Positions 6,923-17,981 of a DNA stretch of 64,000 nt are shown piece by piece. Under the pieces are notes generated by a model. That model was not told where the DNA came from. It did no database searches and saw nothing but the letters and a program-made list of their open reading frames with translations. The first letter of the stretch is position 1, and each line of letters opens with the position of its first letter. The position numbers and the translations under genes are program-made. Source of the stretch: Olsenella profusa F0195 (GTDB lineage: Bacteria; Actinomycetota; Coriobacteriia; Coriobacteriales; Atopobiaceae); assembly GCF_000468755.1 (NCBI RefSeq), contig NZ_AWEZ01000062.1:62001-126000 (forward strand). Direction: 5' to 3'.

Positions 6923-7411
6923 CTATCCCTCGTCCCAGAACTCGTCCGTGAGGATCTTGAAGCAGACCTTCCTGATGGCGACAGGCTCCGTCGTGGCACA
7001 GATGACGTTGGGCATATGCGGCTCGTGAGCCACGAAGATGGCAAAGTGGCGCTTCTCGAGCGTGCCCTCGATCTCATCGCCGTTGTCGGGAGCAGCCTTC
7101 ACATACTGTTTGTCGGATGTCTCGTCGTACTCCCCGAGCGGCTCGGTGGGGCCGGACGTCACGAAAAAACGCTCGGCACCCTCGATGTCCACCTGCAAGT
7201 CCATATATCGACGGTGCACCTCGTAGCGCGCAGTGCCATACGTACGCGTCTTGGCATCCTGCACGAGAGCGAACACCTTGTCCCCCAGGATCTCGTGCGG
7301 GCCCGTCTCGAGCTTCCGGCACTCGTGCTCGCCCAGCCAGTCGATGAGAACGTCCAGGCCCTTGTATAGGCCCCGGTACCGTTCGATGACGCCCATGCCA
7401 TCGTAGATCAT
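6923..7411 (-). CDS. YhcH/YjgK/YiaL (NanQ-like) family protein
   Basis: 162 residues, the full length of the DUF386 family (YhcH, YiaL, EbgC). These cupin-like, metal-binding proteins include the sialic-acid anomerase NanQ and the EbgC subunit. Family features visible are the start MIYDGMG, the metal-site region EVHRRYMDLQVDIEG, and the C-terminal FAIFVAHEPHMPNV with its conserved His pair. It follows a sialidase-like remnant by 12 nt. That context suggests a role with sialic acid or another aldose released from host glycans, though no other nan gene is visible. Confidence 0.85.
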   Translation of the reverse strand: MIYDGMGVIERYRGLYKGLDVLIDWLGEHECRKLETGPHEILGDKVFALVQDAKTRTYGTARYEVHRRYMDLQVDIEGAERFFVTSGPTEPLGEYDETSDKQYVKAAPDNGDEIEGTLEKRHFAIFVAHEPHMPNVICATTEPVAIRKVCFKILTDEFWDEG

Positions 7412-7423
7412 GTCAATCCCCTC

Positions 7424-8065
7424 TCACGATGTGTGGCTGTTGGCTTCCTCGTGTGCCCCCACGTCACCCGACGTGGGGTTGTATGTGCTCTCACCGCGCC
7501 TCTCGCCCATGACGTCAGCCTCGGAGAGCGTCACCCACTTCACACCCCTACGGGTCTCATAGGCATAGGCAAGGTGAATCATCCCGTCGGCGGCCTGGAT
7601 GACGCAGGGGTACTCGTACTGCAGGTTGTTGGCCTTGTTCTCGTCGCCCACGTAGCCCTGGCCGCGCTCGATGTGACGGATGAGCGGGAAGGTCCTGCCG
7701 CCATCCTCGGAAAGCGCAATGGAGACGGGGCAGCGCAGCCCCGGCCAGGCGCCCTTCTGGCCATAGGCCTGAGGTGCACTGGAGTGATTGTGCGCCACGG
7801 CGATACGACCGCTCGTGAGTTTGATGGCGCAGATGCCCGAGCTGTTGTTGGGGAGCACCGTGGGCTCGGGAACGGTCCAGGTGTCACCGTAGTCGAAGGA
7901 CTCGCTGCGGTAGATCCAGTCGGCCTGCCGCGAGCGCATAAAGGCGACGAGGTGAGTTCGGGGACGCCAGCACTCATCCTCCTCGACGGCGCAAACGGCC
8001 ACGCCAAACCGACGGAAGGCGCCCCCTCTCATAGGCGGTCGCAGCCCATCGAGAGCCGGTACCAA
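7424..8065 (-). pseudogene. Truncated sialidase-like (BNR) protein
   Basis: The frame matches only the C-terminal half of sialidase-superfamily beta-propellers. It has Asp-box-like strands (SFDYGDTWT and SEDGGRTF), the phrase LPNNSSGICAIKL, and EYPCVIQAADGMIHLAYAY near the end. Family members are about 380-420 residues, whereas this frame has at most 213. Its upstream part overlaps the 3' end of the metallo-hydrolase gene by 37 bp and uses a TTG. The N-terminal blades, including the usual Arg-triad start, are missing. The simplest reading is a deletion that fused the metallo-hydrolase gene to the tail of a sialidase-like gene. Confidence 0.65.
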
Positions 8066-8853
8066 ACGCCCTTCTCAGGCAGGACCACCCTCGTGTGGAA
8101 AGACCTTCTCTCTATGTCATCGACAATATCGACGAGCTCGTGCGAACCCTCCGCCATCTCGTGGGAGAGGCGGTCGTGGTGGTGAGGGAAGACGAGCGGG
8201 CCGCCAACGGCCACACAGAAGTCGGCGACCCTCTCAAGCGGGTTGAGCGCATTGCCCGTAAACTGCACAATCGAGACATTTGGTCGAAGTCGCGCCATAC
8301 GGGCTGCGTTATCGTAGTCGGGTGTGCCACCCCACACGAGCACACACAGATTGTCTTGGAGGGTCAGCAGATAATTGGTGTACTCATACGAGCCGTTAAC
8401 GTCCGTACGGTGGAATGCGGAGCTGATGCCGTTCGCCTCCTCGATTGCCCGCCAACCGTCAGGGGTGTCTCTTGACCCAAGTTTGGTGTGCTTGCCACGC
8501 AGCGCTTCGATCCTAAGATCATCAAACTCAAAGATGTCTCCGGGGACACAGCCGTTTATACGATGGCCGGGAAGCCGGAAGGCCTCAACGAGATCCAGCA
8601 TGGACCCCTTTCCCACGAATATTTGCGGGTCGAAGCGCTCGACAATGGTCCCAAGGCTCAACACGTGATCAAAGTGCGTATGCGAGATCAGCACGTAGTC
8701 TGCGCCTTCCGCATCCATATGCAACACGTGGTTGGGACTCTCGTCGATATAGGGATCTATGAGCACCTCCCTACCATCGGACAGCCAAATCTCGTAGCAG
8801 GCGTCATTGATCCAGCGGATGGCCGTCATGTCCCTCCTGGGATCCTCGAACAT
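8029..8853 (-). CDS. Metallo-beta-lactamase-fold hydrolase, UlaG-like
   Basis: About 274 residues. The metal motif SHTHFDH (His-x-His-x-Asp-His) is near residue 55, with GKHTKLGS and FPHHHDRL supplying further metal ligands. The overall pattern resembles UlaG-type lactonases/phosphodiesterases rather than beta-lactamases; the substrate is unknown. ATG at 8853 has GGAGG 6 nt upstream; a second ATG at 8829 follows AGGAGG by only 3 nt. The last residues (SMGCDRL) overlap the truncated sialidase, so the native C-terminus may have been altered by the same deletion. The strong hairpin at 8903-8925 separates it from the SLC13 gene. Confidence 0.8.
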   Translation of the reverse strand: MFEDPRRDMTAIRWINDACYEIWLSDGREVLIDPYIDESPNHVLHMDAEGADYVLISHTHFDHVLSLGTIVERFDPQIFVGKGSMLDLVEAFRLPGHRINGCVPGDIFEFDDLRIEALRGKHTKLGSRDTPDGWRAIEEANGISSAFHRTDVNGSYEYTNYLLTLQDNLCVLVWGGTPDYDNAARMARLRPNVSIVQFTGNALNPLERVADFCVAVGGPLVFPHHHDRLSHEMAEGSHELVDIVDDIERRSFHTRVVLPEKGVWYRLSMGCDRL

Positions 8854-8902
8854 CTCTCGCCTCCACAGTCACCCGTCGGGCTGGGCCCGACATAAACAGA
8901 GG

Positions 8903-8925
8903 CCCCAGTCGCACAAAGACTGGGG
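8903..8925 (-). terminator. Terminator hairpin downstream of the SLC13 gene
   Basis: A perfect 8-bp stem, CCCCAGTC/GACTGGGG, with a 7-nt loop. On the minus strand it is followed by CCTCTGTTTAT. It lies about 85 bp beyond the stop of the permease gene and probably ends the acid-sugar operon. Confidence 0.7.
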
Positions 8926-9010
8926 AGCCTCCTCTCTCTTACGTGCAATGTCCAGACGGATCGTTGACCCACCTCACGCCAAAAGCTAGCGGCGGGCACT
9001 CTCCAACATC

Positions 9011-10339
9011 CTAAAATAGGACGAGCAGCGTCGTGATGATTACGATGGGTATGAGGATGAGCAGCAGCGGGCCACCGATCTTCATGAAGTCGGAGAACTT
9101 GTAGCCGGCAGGCAGAATCTGCATGTTGACCGCCGTGCCATAGTTTGTCGCAATAGCGAGGTTAGAGCAGGCGGCAATGACGACGACCCAGGGGATGGGG
9201 CTGATGCCCAAGGCGAGCGCCATCTCGATGCAGATTGGAGAGAGCATGGCAGCGGTCGCATTGTTGGCCATGAAGTTGGTCATGACCGAGGTCAGCGCGA
9301 CGATGACAATCGTAAGCACAACGACCGATGCGTTCTGGCCACCGAAGAACCCAAGCACAGCGTTAGCGATGAGCGCGCCGCCACCCGACACCTGCAAACC
9401 AGTGCCAAGACCGGAAATGGCACCGATGGTAATCAGTACGTCCCAGGGCAGCTCGGAGTAGGCCTTCTTGAGAGGAATGCAGCCAGTCACGAGCACGATG
9501 ACGGCGCCGATCATGCCGATGATGCCAATGTTGAAATAGTCATTGAACGGGGCAAAGCCCTGAAGCACGAACAGCACGATGCACAGAAGCATGGTGCCAA
9601 GTGACACGCGCCGCTTCCAGAGAGGCGCGTCGGGGGTCCTCTCTGTCGAGAGTTTCATGTTTTGGGGTGCGTACATGTTGTCCTTGTCAAAGTCGGGGCT
9701 CTCGGGCTTGAGGACCTTCTTGAGCAGCGAATAGCCAAAGGTGCCCCAGAAGGTAATCTGTACTAGAGCAGTGGGCAGCATGATCTTGGCCTGATCGAAG
9801 ATGCCGAAGCCGTCCTCGAAGCCGGCGTAGCCCTGAAGCACTGCGTTGGCGGCAAGCTGCGAGGTGGAACCCATCAGTGTGCAGGCCCCGCCAATGACGG
9901 CCGCAGTGCCAGCAACGAAGATGACTATCTTGGAGCGGATTTTGCCCCCAGACCCCGCCGCGACGATGGCAATGATGGGCATCCAGATCGCGACGGTGCC
10001 GTTGTTGCTCATGAAGGCCGACATGAGCGTACAGATGGCGGCAACGGCCACGATGAAGCGCCGCTCGGACTGCGCCCACCAGGAGTGAGCGATGCGGTCA
10101 CCAATCTTCTGGGCGACACCGGTCTCGAACAGCGAGTCACTGACGACGAGCATGCCGACGACCATCATCCAGCCGGTTGCGGCGAAGCCCTCGTACGCAG
10201 CGCCAAGCTTCATCTCAGGGATGAGGATTGCCATCAGGGCAGAGCTGGCCAAGGCAACGATGCTCATGGGGATCTTATTCACCATGAACAAGACGATCGC
10301 TACAACCGCAATGACGATCGCAATGGTGCTTGATGCCAT
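9011..10339 (-). CDS. SLC13/DASS-family permease
   Basis: 442 residues with about 11-12 hydrophobic segments. Two repeated halves each carry an SNT/SNN-like motif: MSNNGTVAIWMP near residue 110 and ANNATAAMLSPI near residue 370. These are the substrate/Na+ hairpins of divalent-anion:Na+ symporters (SLC13, CitT-like). Family substrates are di- and tricarboxylates or sulfate. Its place as last gene of the acid-sugar cluster suggests uptake of a hydroxy-acid substrate (inference). About 100 bp of GC-rich sequence separates it from the dehydrogenase upstream. Confidence 0.85.
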   Translation of the reverse strand: MASSTIAIVIAVVAIVLFMVNKIPMSIVALASSALMAILIPEMKLGAAYEGFAATGWMMVVGMLVVSDSLFETGVAQKIGDRIAHSWWAQSERRFIVAVAAICTLMSAFMSNNGTVAIWMPIIAIVAAGSGGKIRSKIVIFVAGTAAVIGGACTLMGSTSQLAANAVLQGYAGFEDGFGIFDQAKIMLPTALVQITFWGTFGYSLLKKVLKPESPDFDKDNMYAPQNMKLSTERTPDAPLWKRRVSLGTMLLCIVLFVLQGFAPFNDYFNIGIIGMIGAVIVLVTGCIPLKKAYSELPWDVLITIGAISGLGTGLQVSGGGALIANAVLGFFGGQNASVVVLTIVIVALTSVMTNFMANNATAAMLSPICIEMALALGISPIPWVVVIAACSNLAIATNYGTAVNMQILPAGYKFSDFMKIGGPLLLILIPIVIITTLLVLF

Positions 10340-10441
10340 TACCTATCACTTCCCTCGTTCTCTACGACATGCGTTCCCTGCCGTCCCCACCGAGCCCCGC
10401 CCTCCGTCGGCAGGCGCCGGCCGGGGGCGAGGCGCGGCAGA

Positions 10442-11428
10442 TCATCGCATCGCGCGATGTTTCCAAGCGTCGGTCTTGTAGACTTCGGGGTTGCAGATGT
10501 TGGACCACTCTTCACCACGCAGCACGGCGAGCGTGCCCTCAGCAGCCATCGTCACGGTCTTGCCGGTGGTCTCCTGCGTCTGCGCCGCCATATGTGGGGT
10601 GATAATCACATTGGGGAACGAGAAAAGCGGGTTCTTGGGATCCATGGGCTCAGCCGAGAGCACATCAAGGCCGGCACCTGCGAGCTTGCCAGCCTCAAGG
10701 ACCCTCACGAGGGCGCTCTCATCGACAATGTCACCGCGAGCGCAATTCACGAGAAAGGCCGTGCTCTTGAAGGCGGCGAACATGCCGTCGTTGATCATCT
10801 TGCGGGTCTCGGGCGTTGAGGGCATGTGCAACGTGACGTAGTCGCCCTTGCTGATTGCGGCGGCCATGTCGGCCTCGTACTCGTAACCGTACTCGGTAAT
10901 CTGCTCTTTCTCGAGGAGGGGATCGTAGGCACACACCTTCATGCCGATGGCAGAGCAGAGGCGGGCCACCTCGCGACCGATCTTGCCGAAGCCAAGCACC
11001 GATACCGTCCTGCCGGCCACCTCAGTCGCCGCATATTTGCTGCGGATCGAGAAGTTGCCCCGCTCGTTCTCATCAACGCTCTCCTTGAGGTTCTTACTGA
11101 GCGCGAGTATGAGAGCGAGGGAATGCTCGGCGACAGCGTGGAAGTTCACGGCTGGGCAGATAACCACCGGAATGCCGTACTCGGTCGCAGCCTTGACGTC
11201 GACGTTATCGACGCCAACTCCCGGGCGCGTGATGACACGCAGCCCCGGACAGGCCTCGATAGCCTTGCGGTCAATCTTCCCGATGCGCAGAATGAAGCCA
11301 TCTGCTTTCTTGAGGTGATCGAGTATCTCGTCGCTGTCACCGTTGTTGGGAATGACGATGTTGACCTTACCCTCCAGTGCGTCCATGCCGGGTTTGTACA
11401 TGGCATGTGACACGACGACCGTATCCAT
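10442..11428 (-). CDS. D-2-hydroxyacid dehydrogenase (PGDH-like)
   Basis: About 328 residues. It has a substrate-binding domain, then a Rossmann core with VLGFGKIGREVA. The catalytic Arg is in NCARGDIVDE, the Glu in GLDVLSAEP, and the His in VIITPHMAAQT. This is a complete NAD-dependent D-2-hydroxyacid dehydrogenase related to 3-phosphoglycerate dehydrogenase, without a regulatory ACT domain. ATG at 11428 has GGGAG 6 nt upstream. It probably interconverts a 2-keto acid and 2-hydroxy acid within the acid-sugar pathway encoded upstream. Serine biosynthesis is less likely given the missing ACT domain and the context. Confidence 0.88.
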   Translation of the reverse strand: MDTVVVSHAMYKPGMDALEGKVNIVIPNNGDSDEILDHLKKADGFILRIGKIDRKAIEACPGLRVITRPGVGVDNVDVKAATEYGIPVVICPAVNFHAVAEHSLALILALSKNLKESVDENERGNFSIRSKYAATEVAGRTVSVLGFGKIGREVARLCSAIGMKVCAYDPLLEKEQITEYGYEYEADMAAAISKGDYVTLHMPSTPETRKMINDGMFAAFKSTAFLVNCARGDIVDESALVRVLEAGKLAGAGLDVLSAEPMDPKNPLFSFPNVIITPHMAAQTQETTGKTVTMAAEGTLAVLRGEEWSNICNPEVYKTDAWKHRAMR

Positions 11429-11587
11429 GGAAAACTCCCTTCGAGTCTGGTCCGGATGCCAAAAAGGTATAGAGACACCCCCGTGCGGGGCTTTACCCCG
11501 TACCTTCAAAGAATGGGGACGGATGGCTGACAGACCGTACGCCCGTTCCCTATGAGCTAGCGAGGAACCTGCCCCGCCTCATTTGGT

Positions 11588-12649
11588 CTATTCGCGAGCC
11601 TTTCTCCCAGCGGCCATACGCAGTGCGTAGTCGATGGCGTTCATGAGCGAGAGCTCGCTCGCGGTCCCCGTGCCGACTAGGTCGAAGCCCGTGCCGTGGT
11701 CCACGGAGGTGCGGATGATGGGCAGGCCCAGGGTGACGTTCACGCCCTCGACGGCCCGCCACCGCCCCTTGTCGCGGTCATACACGAAGCCCAGGAGCTT
11801 GGTGGGGATGTGTCCCTGGTCGTGGTACATGCACACCGTGATGTCAAACCAGCCGCCGTTCATCTCGGAGAAGACGGTGTCGGGCGGGATGGGCCCGATG
11901 GCCTCGATACCCTTGGCCTCGGCCGCCTCGATGGCCGGGATGATCTCCTCGATCTCCTCGGTACCGAAGAGGCCATGCTCCCCCGCATGGGGATTGAGGC
12001 CGGCGACGGCCACCTTGGGACCCTCGATGCCCAGGTCGCGGCAGGCGGCATCCGCCAGCTCGATGACCTCGAGCACGCGATCCCTCCTCACGCGGTCGCA
12101 GGCCTCGCGCAGACTCACGTGCGTGGACACGTGGATGACGCGAAAGTCATGGTGGGCGAGCATCATGGCGTAGCGCTTGGTGTGCGTGTAGGTGGCATAG
12201 ATCTCGGTGTGGCCGTCAAAGCGCATGCCCTCGGGCGCAAGCGCCAGGTTCATGGCCTCCTTGTTGAGGGCGTTGGTCACCGTGGCGTCGATCTCGCCGT
12301 CCATGGCCAGCTCGATGACCTCCCTTACGCTCTGGAAGGCGGCCATGCCACCCTCGGCAGAGACCTCGCCCAGCTTGAAGCTAGCGACGTCCTTCACCAG
12401 GTCCAGGTGGTACACGTCGATGATGCCAGCCTCGAACTTCGCGTCGGCAACGCTCTCGACGGGCCTCACCTTGATCTCGGGATGCCCGACGAAGCCCTTG
12501 GCCTGCTCGATCATCTTTGCGTCGCCCACCACCAGGGGTCGGCAGCGCTCATAGAGCGCGGCATCCGCCAGCGCCTTCACGGTGAGCTCGGGACCGTTGC
12601 CCGCGGGGTCACCCATGGTGATGCCAACGATTGGTCTTGTGCCAGCCAT
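11588..12649 (-). CDS. PdxA2-like 4-phospho-acid dehydrogenase
   Basis: About 353 residues, PdxA-fold. Visible features are GITMGDPAGNGPE at the N-terminus, metal-ligand histidines in FDGHTEIYA, NPHAGEHG and MYHDQGHIP, and SVDHGTGFDL near the C-terminus. PdxA2 enzymes oxidise D-threonate- or D-erythronate-4-phosphate, whose product decarboxylates to DHAP. In that pathway they act after a DUF1537-type kinase, which is encoded two genes upstream here. That pairing argues against a role in vitamin B6 synthesis. The start codon overlaps the upstream stop (TAATG), indicating translational coupling. Confidence 0.88.
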   Translation of the reverse strand: MAGTRPIVGITMGDPAGNGPELTVKALADAALYERCRPLVVGDAKMIEQAKGFVGHPEIKVRPVESVADAKFEAGIIDVYHLDLVKDVASFKLGEVSAEGGMAAFQSVREVIELAMDGEIDATVTNALNKEAMNLALAPEGMRFDGHTEIYATYTHTKRYAMMLAHHDFRVIHVSTHVSLREACDRVRRDRVLEVIELADAACRDLGIEGPKVAVAGLNPHAGEHGLFGTEEIEEIIPAIEAAEAKGIEAIGPIPPDTVFSEMNGGWFDITVCMYHDQGHIPTKLLGFVYDRDKGRWRAVEGVNVTLGLPIIRTSVDHGTGFDLVGTGTASELSLMNAIDYALRMAAGRKARE

Positions 12650-13542
12650 TACTCGATGCCCCTCTGCTTGTCCTCGGCGAGTGCCGTGCGCAGGGCGGCA
12701 AGCCCCTCCTCGGAGAGCTGGTTGAACGGGGCGCGGCATCTGCCCACGGGGAAGCCCAGCTCTCTCACGGCAAACTTCACGACGGTGTTGGGGTTGCCGT
12801 ACTTGAACACGCTGCGCAGGTTGGCCACGTTGTCCTGGCACTGCTGGGCGGCGTCGAGGTCGCCCTTCACGAAGTTCTCGTAGATGCCCACCATGTTCTT
12901 GGGATACACGTTGGCACAGCCGGCGATGGAGCCCTTCGCGCCCTCCTTGAGGGCCCTGAGGATGAGGGCGTCGTTACCGGAGAGCACGGCGAAGTCCTTG
13001 TTGCGGGTGAGGTCGATGTAGGCCTTGAGGTTGTCCCAGTCACCCGAGGAGTCCTTGGCGCCCACGATGTTGTCCACCTCGGAGAGCTTGGCCACGGTGG
13101 CGGGCTCGAGGGCGTTGCCGGTGCGCATGGGGATGTTGTAGAGCACGATCGGCAGGTCCACGGCGGCGGCCACGGCCTCGTAGTGGGCCTGAAGCTCGGC
13201 CTGGCTGGCCTTGGCGAAGCTCGGGGTGATGATGGAGAGCACGTCGGCGCCCAGGTCGGCAGCCATCTTGGACTGCTCGATGGTCTCCTTGGTGGAGACG
13301 CAGCCGGTGCCGGCGTACACGGGCACGCGGCCGGCGACCTGGTTGATCACCGTCGCGAGGACGAGCATCTTGTCCTCCTTGTCGAGGATGTAGCCCTCGC
13401 CGTTGGTGCCAAAGCAGAAGATGGCGTGGATGCCGGCCTCGATCTGGCGATCCACCTGGCAGCGCAGCTCCGCCGTGTTGATGGTCTCGTCCTCCCTGAA
13501 CGGCGTGACGATGGGAACGATGATGCCCTTGATGCCTGCCAT
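12649..13542 (-). CDS. DapA-family class I lyase/aldolase
   Basis: 297 residues, full-length (beta/alpha)8 fold of the DHDPS/N-acetylneuraminate lyase family. Features include IVPIVTPF at the N-terminus, GTNGEGYIL (the GTTGE-like pyruvate carboxylate loop), the catalytic Tyr in LYNIPMRTG, and the Schiff-base Lys in VGAKDSSGDW. The family condenses or cleaves pyruvate-derived substrates. Placed between an acid-sugar kinase and PdxA2, it more probably handles a 2-keto-3-deoxy acid or a related hydroxy-keto acid than lysine synthesis. The exact substrate is not readable. It lies directly after the fusion gene and overlaps the PdxA2 start. Confidence 0.88.
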   Translation of the reverse strand: MAGIKGIIVPIVTPFREDETINTAELRCQVDRQIEAGIHAIFCFGTNGEGYILDKEDKMLVLATVINQVAGRVPVYAGTGCVSTKETIEQSKMAADLGADVLSIITPSFAKASQAELQAHYEAVAAAVDLPIVLYNIPMRTGNALEPATVAKLSEVDNIVGAKDSSGDWDNLKAYIDLTRNKDFAVLSGNDALILRALKEGAKGSIAGCANVYPKNMVGIYENFVKGDLDAAQQCQDNVANLRSVFKYGNPNTVVKFAVRELGFPVGRCRAPFNQLSEEGLAALRTALAEDKQRGIE

Positions 13543-15927
13543 CTACCTCAGCAACCTCTCGTAGATCGCGCGTGCGTCCTCAGCGGTGACCTCACGCATG
13601 TTGTTCACGAGCAGCCGCTGCTGCTGCATGCCTGCCTCCACGAGGCCCTCGAGGTCCTCGGGCTTGACGCCAAACTCCTTGAGATCGGTGGGGATGTCCA
13701 GGTCGCGCACGATGTCACCGATCCGGTCGAGGAGGGCGCGGGACTTCTCCCCCTCTGTGGAGAGGACCTTGTCACCGTGGTGGGCGCGATCCCAGGCCTG
13801 CGCGAACTTGGTGCGGCAGGCGGGCTCGTTGAACTCCAGGACGGGCAGGAGCATCATGGCGATGGAGACGCCGTGGGCCATGTGGTACTTGCCGCCCAGC
13901 GGATAGGCCAGGCCGTGCACGGCCGTGGTGCCCGAGGCCGTGATGGCGATGCCGCCGTAGAAGGCGCCAATCTGCATCCGGTTCTTCTCGACAATGGCGT
14001 CCTCGTCGTCGCAGGCCCTCATGATGTTGTTCATGATGATGTCAAGGCCCTCGAGCGCGAAGGTGTCGCTCATGGGGTTGGCCTTCTTGGACGTGAGGCA
14101 CTCGATGCAGTGCGCCAGGGCGTCCACGCCTGTGGTGGCGGCGATCTTGCGCGGGAGGTTGCGGATCATCTCGGCGTCGAGGATCACGTAGTCGGGAACC
14201 ATGTTGTCGTTGACGATGCCGATCTTGGTCTCCTGCTCCGGCACGGCCACGATGGCATTGGGGGTGCACTCGGCGCCGGTGCCGGCCGTGGTGGGGATGG
14301 CGAGCAGGGGTGCGCACTTCCTGGCGCGACCGGGATCGGAGAGTAGGTCCTTCACGCCGTACGCGTCGGTGTCGAGCACGCTGGCGAGCTTGGCGGCGTC
14401 CATCACGGAGCCGCCGCCACAGGCGATGATGAAGTCCGCCCCAGTGCTGCGGAACTGGTCGACCGTGGCCTGGGCCGCCTCGTAGGTGGGCTCGGGCATG
14501 AGGTCGTCGAAGACCTCGCATACCAGACCGGCGGCCTCAACCTGCTTGGCCACCAGGTCAAAGAGGCCGCGTGACCGGATGGACCCGTCCGTGAAGGCAG
14601 CGACTTTGGTAGCTCCTGCCCCCTTGAGAATGGCGGGAATCCTCCCGAGGGAATTGGCACCGCTATAGACCGCATGTGGCAGCTTGAGGCTGTACGCATC
14701 CACTGGCATGGCTGAGACCTCCTGTTTCTCGACCAGGTACTGCTGGACTTGCATGAGTAGATCGTCCGCGCCAAAGGCACCGGACTTGGTGATGAGGTAG
14801 CGCTCGCGACCGGCGTCCTCGAAGCGCGCGAGCACGACGCCGGGCAGAATCTCCTCCATGGGCTCGAGCGTCCTGATGCCCATGGCGGTCATGAGGCTTG
14901 CAAGCGTGTCGCCACCGATAACCATCAGCGTGCGGCCGCCATCCTCCAGCACCTCGCGAGCAATGCGTCCCATGGCCTGGTTGATGGCTTGTGAGGGATG
15001 GATGCGGCGTTCGAAGAGCGCCGCCTCGCAGAAGTCAAGCGTGTCGAGAAGGGCGAGGGGCGCGCCTTGGGCCACCCGGACGAAGTCTCGTGCGAGCTGG
15101 ATGGCATCGCACTCGCACCAGGAACCCGAGAGCACGGGGGCGAGCGGCAGATGCATACGGGGCGCACCATGGGCCTCAATGAAATCCAGCTGGGAACGGG
15201 TGACCGCGTTGACCGAGCCGGAGAGCACCGACAGCTTGGGACTCAGCCTCGTGCATACAGGCACATATGCGGGCGTGCTCGACTGGCGTGGATAGGTCTC
15301 CAGGAAGCCGGCACAGCCCGCCACAAGCACCAGGTCGTCAGCCTCGGCAAGCCTGCGCCCGATGCGTGCGAGGCCCTCGTCGCTGTCGCAGTCGAACACG
15401 TCCACCCCAGGCTTGAGCGCGCTGCCATCGCACGGGCTCACGGCGACATCGCTCTCCAGGTGGATGAGCTCGTCGATGCGGCTTGTGGCGACCGGGTCGA
15501 TGGGATCTGTGGCAAAGACGCTCTGCGCAAGGGGCCTGCCGTCCACATACTGGACCAGGCCCTTGGTCACGCGGCCCATCTTGGGGTAGGCGGGGACGAA
15601 GTCGATGTGGTCGCGCCCCGAGGCCGCAAGGGCCGCGGCGATCTCGGCACCCACGTTGCCGCGCAGGCCCGAGTCCACCTTCTTGTAGATGCGAGTCACA
15701 CCATGGGCGCACGCCGTCGAGACGAGCTCGAAGACGGTACGGTACGCCTCGTCGGAGGAGGCGTGACGAGTCTCGGCATCGATGACAAGCACGTCGTAAT
15801 CGTCAAGCAGGGCCACATCCATGGTCGGGTCCGCAGACACCGCCACACGGTCACCCTTGCGAGCGAGCTGCACACCAGAATCCAAGGCCCCCGTAAGGTC
15901 ATCGGCTATGACGAGCAGACCAATCAC
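13543..15927 (-). CDS. Fused four-carbon acid-sugar kinase / iron-containing alcohol dehydrogenase
   Basis: One continuous frame of about 794 residues. Residues 1-410 form a complete DUF1537/OtnK-DtnK-type kinase: IADDLTGALDSG at the N-terminus, YKKVDSGLRGN, and the C-terminal nucleotide motif VIGGDTLASL. Residues about 415-794 form a full iron-containing ADH: CGGGSVMDAAKL, PTTAGTGAECTP, and metal ligands in GVDALAHCIE and VHGLAYPLGGKYHMAHG. In the last motif the usual middle His of HGxAH is Tyr. GTG at 15927 is chosen because GGAGG lies 8 nt upstream. The kinase would phosphorylate a four-carbon acid; the ADH partner reaction is unknown. The known fusion for this kinase that I recall is to PdxA, so this pairing looks unusual. 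Confidence 0.87.
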   Translation of the reverse strand: MIGLLVIADDLTGALDSGVQLARKGDRVAVSADPTMDVALLDDYDVLVIDAETRHASSDEAYRTVFELVSTACAHGVTRIYKKVDSGLRGNVGAEIAAALAASGRDHIDFVPAYPKMGRVTKGLVQYVDGRPLAQSVFATDPIDPVATSRIDELIHLESDVAVSPCDGSALKPGVDVFDCDSDEGLARIGRRLAEADDLVLVAGCAGFLETYPRQSSTPAYVPVCTRLSPKLSVLSGSVNAVTRSQLDFIEAHGAPRMHLPLAPVLSGSWCECDAIQLARDFVRVAQGAPLALLDTLDFCEAALFERRIHPSQAINQAMGRIAREVLEDGGRTLMVIGGDTLASLMTAMGIRTLEPMEEILPGVVLARFEDAGRERYLITKSGAFGADDLLMQVQQYLVEKQEVSAMPVDAYSLKLPHAVYSGANSLGRIPAILKGAGATKVAAFTDGSIRSRGLFDLVAKQVEAAGLVCEVFDDLMPEPTYEAAQATVDQFRSTGADFIIACGGGSVMDAAKLASVLDTDAYGVKDLLSDPGRARKCAPLLAIPTTAGTGAECTPNAIVAVPEQETKIGIVNDNMVPDYVILDAEMIRNLPRKIAATTGVDALAHCIECLTSKKANPMSDTFALEGLDIIMNNIMRACDDEDAIVEKNRMQIGAFYGGIAITASGTTAVHGLAYPLGGKYHMAHGVSIAMMLLPVLEFNEPACRTKFAQAWDRAHHGDKVLSTEGEKSRALLDRIGDIVRDLDIPTDLKEFGVKPEDLEGLVEAGMQQQRLLVNNMREVTAEDARAIYERLLR

Positions 15928-16109: not shown

Positions 16110-17981
16110 ATGATGCCATCACGCGCAGCGTCAGACGGAATCTTGGAGAGGAACATGGTCTGCACGGACGCACGGGGGGTGCGCATACTCGCCATCGCGC
16201 CCTACCAGGGACTTGCGATCGCCCTCAGGCGCGTCGCCGACGAGTATGCGAATGTGGGCCTCACCTGCATCGTGGGCAACCTCTCGGCCGGCGTCACCGC
16301 AGCCCAAGAGCAGGTCTCCGCAGGCAATGCCTACGATGTCATCATCTCTCGCGGCGGCACGGCCGACCTCCTGCGCGAGAGCTTCAGCCTTCCCGTCATC
16401 GACATCCCGGTCAGCGCCTACGACGTGCTACAGGCCATCAAGCTCTCCGAAGGGCTCAAGGGACGGCGCGCCGTCGTGGGCTTTACGGCCATCACCCAGA
16501 CGGCCGACACGCTCAACGAGATCATGCAGCTTGGCCTCGACATCTTCACGCTCGTGGACACCGACGACGTCAGTACGGTCATGGGACTCCTCGTGGAGAA
16601 CGACTACCAGATCATCCTCTGTGACGTCATCTCGGCCTCGGCGGCACGGGATGCGGGACTCAATCCCGTGCTCATCACCTCGGGCGGCGCATCGATACGG
16701 CAGGTGTTTGACGAGGCCCTCAGACAGACTAGGTACCTGCGCCACTACAGCAGTGAGAACGCGCTGCTGCGTACCGTCATCAACCGCCAGCCACAACGCT
16801 GCGCGATCTTTCGCAAGGACGGGTCGCTCATGCTGGGCACCTACCAGACGGACGATGGGGTCATGGCATACCTGCGAGGCATCGTCAACGAGGTCATGGC
16901 GGGGGACGTGCGGGTCGTGCGCAAGTCGTTGGGTGGCACGCTCTGGACGATTCGCGGCGAGAGGGTCTCCACCAGCGCCATCCCCCACAATGACTTCTGC
17001 GCCTTCTACTTCACGGGCACACGCGCCACCCCCAAGCGGCGGCGCGCAGGCATGAGCTCCTTCTCAAGGACCGAGGCGACCAAGGCCTATGACAGGAGCC
17101 TCTATGCCCTCACGAGTGACATCGGACGCATCTCGGCGACGATCGACAACTCGAACCAGACGGGGCAGCCCCTCCTCATCACGGGCGAGTACGGAACGGG
17201 CAGGACGGCTGTCGCCCTCTACGCCTACATCCATGGCCTCCATGCCGACATGCCCCTCACGGAGGTCGACTGCGGCATGATGACCGACTCCTCGCGCGAC
17301 TTCCTCGTCAACAGCTCGCGCTCGCCCCTCTACACGCGACATGAGGTCATCCACATCAAGAACTTCAACAGCTCCGACGAGGGGTTCCTGGACAGCCTCT
17401 TCTCCACCATCGCGCAGACGGGCGTGTGCGAGCGCAACCGCGTCATCTTCTCATGCGACCCACACGGCGAGCACGTGCACAGGCGCATCGCCTATCTCAA
17501 GGACAAGTTCCAGTGCGTCGAAGTCCAGCTCATCGCCCTGCGCGAACAGCCAGAACGTGTGGCTCCGCTCACCAGCCTCTACCTCAGCCAGCTGAGAAGC
17601 GAGCTGCCCAACGAGGTCCTGCGCATAGATGGTGCCGCCATGCGACTGCTCGGTGAGTACGCCTGGCCGGGCAACCTCGTGCAGATGGAGCGCATCATAC
17701 GACAGCTCTACCTCTCGGCGGTCGATCATGTGATTCGCACCGTGGATGTGCGCAGCGCGCTCGCCCTCGAACGAACCACCTATCCTCAAGGCCCAACGGG
17801 ACAGGACGTCGCGCAGACGTCCTCCGCCCATGCACCCACGGACATGTCCGGTCTCACGCTGGCCCAGGTTGACCGCCTTGCCGTGGAGGACGCCGTGCGC
17901 CGCAACGGCGGCAACCAGAGTGCCGCCGCGCGCGAGCTGGGCATCAGCCGCACGACACTCTGGCGCATCCGTAGGCAGTAG
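16110..17981 (+). CDS. PrpR-type transcriptional regulator with degenerate AAA+ domain
   Basis: Up to 623 residues. The N-terminal PrpR_N effector domain (about residues 25-200) contains VISRGGTADLLRE and PVIDIPVSAYDVLQA. A central AAA+-like domain follows (about 325-540) and a Fis-type HTH ends the protein (QSAAARELGISRTTLWR). Against sigma-54 activators, the P-loop is GEYGTGRTA rather than GExGxGKE, no GAFTGA loop is visible, and the Walker B position reads IHIKNFNSSDEG. It therefore probably does not drive sigma-54 promoters. ATG 16155 (GGAGAGG about 3 nt upstream) is an alternative start. It diverges from the acid-sugar operon and likely controls it via the paired operator. Confidence 0.85.
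   Translation: MMPSRAASDGILERNMVCTDARGVRILAIAPYQGLAIALRRVADEYANVGLTCIVGNLSAGVTAAQEQVSAGNAYDVIISRGGTADLLRESFSLPVIDIPVSAYDVLQAIKLSEGLKGRRAVVGFTAITQTADTLNEIMQLGLDIFTLVDTDDVSTVMGLLVENDYQIILCDVISASAARDAGLNPVLITSGGASIRQVFDEALRQTRYLRHYSSENALLRTVINRQPQRCAIFRKDGSLMLGTYQTDDGVMAYLRGIVNEVMAGDVRVVRKSLGGTLWTIRGERVSTSAIPHNDFCAFYFTGTRATPKRRRAGMSSFSRTEATKAYDRSLYALTSDIGRISATIDNSNQTGQPLLITGEYGTGRTAVALYAYIHGLHADMPLTEVDCGMMTDSSRDFLVNSSRSPLYTRHEVIHIKNFNSSDEGFLDSLFSTIAQTGVCERNRVIFSCDPHGEHVHRRIAYLKDKFQCVEVQLIALREQPERVAPLTSLYLSQLRSELPNEVLRIDGAAMRLLGEYAWPGNLVQMERIIRQLYLSAVDHVIRTVDVRSALALERTTYPQGPTGQDVAQTSSAHAPTDMSGLTLAQVDRLAVEDAVRRNGGNQSAAARELGISRTTLWRIRRQ

Follow-up and report, generated by a model that had tools for sequence, protein, structure and literature searches.

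The window, by which we mean the whole stretch of 64,000 nucleotides of Olsenella profusa F0195 that was analysed, carries a gene cluster in which a DUF1537 four-carbon acid sugar kinase and an iron-containing alcohol dehydrogenase (Fe-ADH) share a single reading frame. The features of the cluster are the following.

6923-7411, minus strand: DUF386 (YhcH/YjgK/YiaL family, anomerase-type) protein
7424-7954, minus strand: remnant of the operon sialidase-fold (BNR_2) gene, C-terminal part; intact in the sister strain (G039) and relatives
7955-11603: strain-specific block with a 2-hydroxyacid dehydrogenase, a DASS transporter and a metallo-beta-lactamase-fold protein
9011-10339, minus strand: CitMHS/DASS-type carboxylate transporter, strain-specific replacement of the usual permease
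10442-11428, minus strand: D-2-hydroxyacid dehydrogenase (PGDH-like), a strain-specific accessory which recurs beside the operon elsewhere
11588-12649, minus strand: PdxA-family dehydrogenase, PdxA2-like, candidate D-threonate-4-phosphate dehydrogenase
12649-13542, minus strand: DHDPS-family class I lyase/aldolase with Phe at the DapA Tyr107 position, not DapA
13543-15927, minus strand: fused gene, DUF1537 kinase plus Fe-ADH, 794 aa, GTG start
13543-14709, minus strand: Fe-ADH half (residues 407-794) with its own ATG; metal ligands Asp602, His606, His671 and His685; Tyr675
14710-14718, minus strand: junction codons GTC TCA GCC (Val404 Ser405 Ala406)
14717-14723, minus strand: retained internal Shine-Dalgarno AGGAGGT, 7 nt upstream of the internal ATG (Met407)
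14719-15927, minus strand: kinase half (residues 1-403), full DUF1537 two-domain fold with all invariant family residues kept
16155-17981, plus strand: PrpR_N-family regulator, divergent, conserved beside the operon

The fused gene lies on the minus strand, a correction to the first-pass annotation, and its frame runs from the GTG at 15927 to 13543 without interruption over 794 codons. The protein contains the Pfam domains SBD_N (residues 4-210), NBD_C (234-391), Fe-ADH (417-584) and ADH_Fe_C (597-792), all of which exceed their curated cut-offs. The first two (132.7 bits against a cut-off of 25, and 75.3 against 28.3) follow each other as in DUF1537 kinases, and the predicted fold of the kinase half matches the solved DUF1537 structure 3dqq with a Z of 40.4 over 386 residues and an rmsd of 3.5, the plasmid loci being left out of the alignment used for structure prediction. 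Every residue invariant in 22 relatives is kept in this half, while the second half possesses both Fe-ADH domains together with the Asp/His/His/His metal ligands. The same 794-codon fusion is open in G039, an independent single-contig assembly of the same species, with 99% identity and four codon differences, none of them close to the junction. The two strains are wholly different in the 3.6-kb block downstream, and yet their junctions are identical. A stop codon masked by a sequencing or assembly error, which the first-pass annotation had located near 14680-14730 as the event that would undo its claim, found no support and is excluded for practical purposes by this second assembly, leaving it a negligible probability. 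The frame represents a natural fusion, specific to the species, which joins two neighbouring operon genes and leaves every domain at full length. The single frame with a full kinase and a full Fe-ADH described by the first-pass annotation was therefore confirmed by the frame, the domains and the sister strain; its placement of the junction near residue 412 was not, as the ADH starts at Met407 (14709-14707) and the kinase ends at about residues 403-405.

The kinase is a separate gene with its own stop, directly upstream of the ADH, in 19 further genomes from the family and the order; the boundaries seen among relatives are stop/start overlaps or gaps of a few bases. Six of these 19 genomes have both genes in one frame, divided by a single stop. 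Codon alignment at the junction sets GAG GAG TAA GGA ATG of one orthologue (G123) against GAG GTC TCA GCC ATG of the window, so that the TAA stop falls opposite TCA, the codon of Ser405. One substitution in this stop, A to C, would be enough to open the frame, which makes stop loss the simplest route to the fusion. The C-terminal helix of the kinase is predicted to extend to residue 405, and Met407 is the native start of the ADH. The internal Shine-Dalgarno is predicted to pair with the 16S end at -11.0 kcal/mol, which matches the strength of the kinase's own site (-10.6 kcal/mol), and among 226 other internal start codons of the neighbouring genes only 1 follows an equally strong site. As the ADH has kept a strong ribosome-binding site and an ATG inside the frame, the locus probably yields two products, the fusion and free ADH subunits.

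No further kinase-ADH fusion was found under strict thresholds among 397 genomes of the order, nor in an even sample of 396 genomes from the phylum, and within this range the fusion is ruled out as a widespread form. The search also covered a plasmid collection, whose best match, from Enterococcus raffinosus, has a stop between the kinase and ADH genes. In the other species of the genus that the search covered, nothing matched at the threshold applied, and this species is the only one from which the fusion is known. The first-pass annotation had proposed a survey of domain co-occurrence across genomes, and these two genome sets returned no second kinase-Fe-ADH fusion. It had also held that homologues which are always separate would speak against the fusion: outside the species this is nearly the case, and the fusion itself stands because two assemblies carry it. 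As far as these searches show, a DUF1537-Fe-ADH fusion is undescribed.

An operon of the kinase, the ADH, the DHDPS-like lyase and PdxA2 is conserved across three phyla. The conserved block consists of the PrpR-type regulator and, divergently, the kinase, ADH, lyase and PdxA genes, an order kept in about 20 genomes. The relatives have, downstream of this block, genes for a CitMHS-type permease, a sialidase-fold protein and a DUF386 protein, in some cases joined by an MFS transporter or esterase-like proteins; the operon often includes a sialidase-fold protein, a YhcH anomerase and carboxylate transporters. With varying order, the gene set was also found in Enterococcus raffinosus, Niallia taxi, Subdoligranulum, a rumen Clostridiales genome (MAG), Pantoea vagans, Klebsiella pneumoniae, Caballeronia and a leaf Comamonadaceae, accompanied by a sialidase-family gene in Enterococcus, Subdoligranulum, Caballeronia, Klebsiella and Comamonadaceae. 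On the Caballeronia plasmid (L072:9224-11530), the kinase is fused to PdxA in a protein of 768 aa, clustered with DHDPS-like, Fe-ADH and sialidase-family genes. The earlier statement that relatives of the kinase act with PdxA2 and are sometimes fused to it agrees with both this fusion and the PdxA2-type operon.

Some further features of these operons were observed. Esterase-like proteins of about 600 aa with an alpha/beta hydrolase core recur in some of them (L039:15639-17435, L041, L046, L070 and L077), a hint at an esterified substrate. The ADH and the regulator are split in L047 (G097), as is PdxA in L040 (G077), in operons which are otherwise conserved; these splits represent decay or assembly frameshifts. 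The PrpR_N-type regulator of the window gives a weak Sigma54_activat match, and no sigma-54 gene (PF04552) was detected in the genome carrying it, so that the regulator probably acts without RpoN.

The sister strain has the intact downstream set, and its arrangement is the ancestral one. In the window strain, the block at 7955-11603 stands in place of the usual CitMHS permease and of the sialidase-fold gene's N-terminal portion; a 2-hydroxyacid dehydrogenase of the same family adjoins the operon in G201, Niallia and Pantoea. With the sialidase-fold gene truncated and the permease replaced, the window strain may take up a free acid sugar. The model of the intact G039 protein (pLDDT 76) has the propeller fold of GH33-type sialidases, as predicted from its match to 2ber (Z 37.8, 319 residues, rmsd 2.4); GH143 was not among the matches listed for this model, an absence which proves nothing. 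The sialidase-fold proteins of the operons (L032:3365-4549, minus strand, and relatives, alignment A3) have no obvious signal peptide and, when the alignment is read by eye, a seemingly invariant His occupies the position of the first carboxylate-triad arginine of sialidases. Judged from these sequence features, they may act intracellularly on an unusual ulosonic acid.

The ADHs of the operon form one clade (tree of 27 rows, support 100/97). The Tyr which the first-pass annotation had noticed in place of the second His of HGxAH is present, as Tyr675 in HGLAY, and sets the protein apart from the FucO-like pattern. It had been read as a hint of a changed active site; a link of such a change to the fusion is not supported, since Tyr is found in every unfused operon orthologue with a readable motif and also in the nearest other clade, that of 4-hydroxybutyrate-dehydrogenase-like ADHs, and is thus a property of the clade. 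A fusion-specific change at this position is ruled out. Three members of the neighbouring clade (support 92/81) adjoin succinate-semialdehyde dehydrogenase genes. Four other plasmid ADH matches lack the operon gene set and fall outside the operon clade, and a succinate-semialdehyde dehydrogenase gene lies beside three of the four. The ADH of a Clostridiales genome (L073, G758:C16) groups with the window ADH (94/85), which, as far as the tree goes, suggests exchange of the operon between distant lineages.

These observations can be arranged in one scheme. The DHDPS-like lyase would release pyruvate and D-threuronate, a C4 aldehyde acid, from a 3-deoxy-2-ketoaldarate, the Fe-ADH would reduce the aldehyde of D-threuronate to D-threonate, the DUF1537 kinase would convert D-threonate into D-threonate 4-phosphate, and PdxA2 would yield DHAP and CO2 from it by oxidative decarboxylation, recovering the NADH spent by the ADH. 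The C4 semialdehyde chemistry of the neighbouring ADH clade matches the reduction proposed here. In Pantoea, the kinase and PdxA exceed the curated D-threonate cut-offs (520 against 450 and 658 against 583), making D-threonate the likely intermediate of that cluster. The window kinase (175 bits against 450 for the DtnK equivalog NF047819) and the window PdxA (327 against 583 for the PdxA2 equivalog NF002891) are under the D-threonate cut-offs; the PdxA is above the cut-off of TIGR00557 pdxA (321 against 290). The D-threonate assignment is carried over to both proteins by gene context. A pyruvate-forming lyase followed by reduction to threonate requires the substrate to be a C7 3-deoxy-2-ketoaldarate, for which the best candidate would be Dha (3-deoxy-D-lyxo-2-heptulosarate) from the rhamnogalacturonan II (RG-II) of pectin. 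Carboxylate-type transporters fit a diacid, and a 3-deoxy-ulosonic acid in ketosidic linkage would suit the associated protein with its sialidase fold. YhcH provides an aldolase with the open form of a cyclic ulosonate and does not affect a C5 ulosonate that is mostly open-chain (PMC8141875), an argument for a longer, cyclic substrate; jointly, the sialidase-fold protein and the anomerase point to a cyclic 3-deoxy-2-ulosonic acid. On paper, cleavage of Dha at C3-C4 and reduction of the aldehyde give D-threonate alone of the four possible stereoisomers, a match which is independent of the preceding argument and falls short of proof, as the same product would be expected from a C4 epimer of Dha. 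We hold with middling confidence that the fused protein, made along with some free ADH, is bifunctional and performs consecutive steps of a sugar-acid route from a 3-deoxy-2-ketoaldarate, Dha being the best candidate, to pyruvate and DHAP. The fuller claim is more tentative: that the operon is a complete cytoplasmic Dha route to these products, present in three phyla, with the maker and the user of D-threonate being here one protein.

Several facts count against this scheme, namely the low scores of the window kinase and PdxA, a lyase above the cut-off of the TIGR00674 dapA model (226 bits against 206), the truncated sialidase gene of the window strain, and the presence in some relatives of esterase-like genes beside or instead of it. 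The lyase score would suit a cluster which is not a single pathway, composed of an ordinary lysine DapA and a general alcohol dehydrogenase, but this is very improbable: the window lyase has TPSF in place of TPYY, every operon copy has Phe for the catalytic Tyr107, a further copy elsewhere in this genome (L080) retains TPYY and the DapA residues, and the gene order is kept in about 20 genomes. DapA is ruled out for the operon lyase on its active site. The same operon logic could also serve another substrate, e.g. through plain uptake of D-threonate or erythronate, with the ADH and the lyase handling a second acid such as 2-keto-3-deoxypentonate or -hexonate, from which glycolaldehyde or glyceraldehyde would be released and reduced by the ADH. 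Lactaldehyde reductases are indeed the best-scoring models for the window ADH, such aldolases occur in the DHDPS family, and the window kinase and PdxA score under the D-threonate cut-offs. We regard this as rather unlikely, since it leaves unexplained the joint travel of the four genes across phyla with sialidase-fold and YhcH genes, and YhcH does not affect the mostly open-chain C5 ulosonate.

What the fusion itself does can be considered separately. In the Dha scheme, the two halves would be consecutive, the ADH yielding the D-threonate which the kinase consumes, and the pairing of an alcohol/aldehyde step with a phosphorylation step put forward by the first-pass annotation finds good support in the conserved operon. 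Here the kinase is joined to the ADH, and in Caballeronia to PdxA, the following step, as a linear route predicts for its middle enzyme. Channelling between the halves is possible, and the internal start site speaks against a need for a strict 1:1 complex of kinase and ADH. The same start site, with its retained Shine-Dalgarno, would also suit a real and incidental fusion, that is a near-neutral stop loss in a translationally coupled pair, with the ADH made mostly from the internal start and nothing channelled. The restriction to one species among the 397 genomes of the order and the overlapping or closely spaced genes of relatives favour this account, to which we assign a possible but less than even standing. 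Against it, the frame is intact in two strains that differ at four codons and all invariant kinase residues are kept, so that the fused form is at least tolerated.

Several known systems resemble parts of the cluster. The window ADH shares its family, the four metal ligands and a likely C4 semialdehyde reduction with the group of FucO and 4-hydroxybutyrate dehydrogenase, and differs from FucO in having HxxxY instead of HxxxH and in belonging to a clade of its own tied to the kinase operon. Sialic acid catabolism, which proceeds through ManNAc via NanK/NanE, likewise combines a sialidase, the YhcH/NanQ anomerase and NanA, comparable to the sialidase-fold hydrolase, DUF386 protein and DHDPS-family lyase found here, whereas in the operon the lyase is followed by a C4 acid kinase and PdxA2 rather than the ManNAc route. 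The DtnK-PdxA2 pathway for D-threonate, based on DUF1537 kinases (Zhang et al. 2016, as far as it is outlined in PMC10971088 and PMC10580937), also has a DUF1537 kinase and a PdxA-family dehydrogenase in one operon, with C4 acid sugar chemistry expected to lead to DHAP. As outlined there, it differs from the window in the fusion of the kinase to an Fe-ADH, in the additional lyase, sialidase-fold and YhcH genes, and in the scores of the window proteins under the curated D-threonate cut-offs. A DUF1537-vitamin B6 fusion is listed in PMC4921024; in DUF1537-PdxA fusions, the same kinase family is joined to a neighbouring enzyme of the same pathway, the partner being the dehydrogenase of the following step, while in the window the partner is the Fe-ADH, which would act in the step before. 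GH143 of Bacteroides thetaiotaomicron, part of a bimodular RG-II enzyme, is a Dha hydrolase of variant fold (PMC6811678); it acts on the proposed substrate of the operon, whose protein has instead the classical sialidase fold.

Our literature search, outside which most subscription papers lay, returned no description of this gene cluster or of the fate of Dha downstream of GH143, and no paper with both heptulosar- and threonate. The cluster looks like a complete route, so far undescribed, by which a rare acid sugar of seven carbons, possibly Dha from pectin, would be consumed. The fusion suggests which two steps of an orphan operon are successive, and the operon offers a concrete, testable answer to what becomes of Dha once RG-II is broken down. 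If the scheme is true, it would account for the role of many genes annotated as 'sialidase family', 'dihydrodipicolinate synthase family' and 'iron-containing alcohol dehydrogenase' beside D-threonate kinases, among them those of plant-associated bacteria, as plants are without sialic acid (PMC12168206, PMC6852159).
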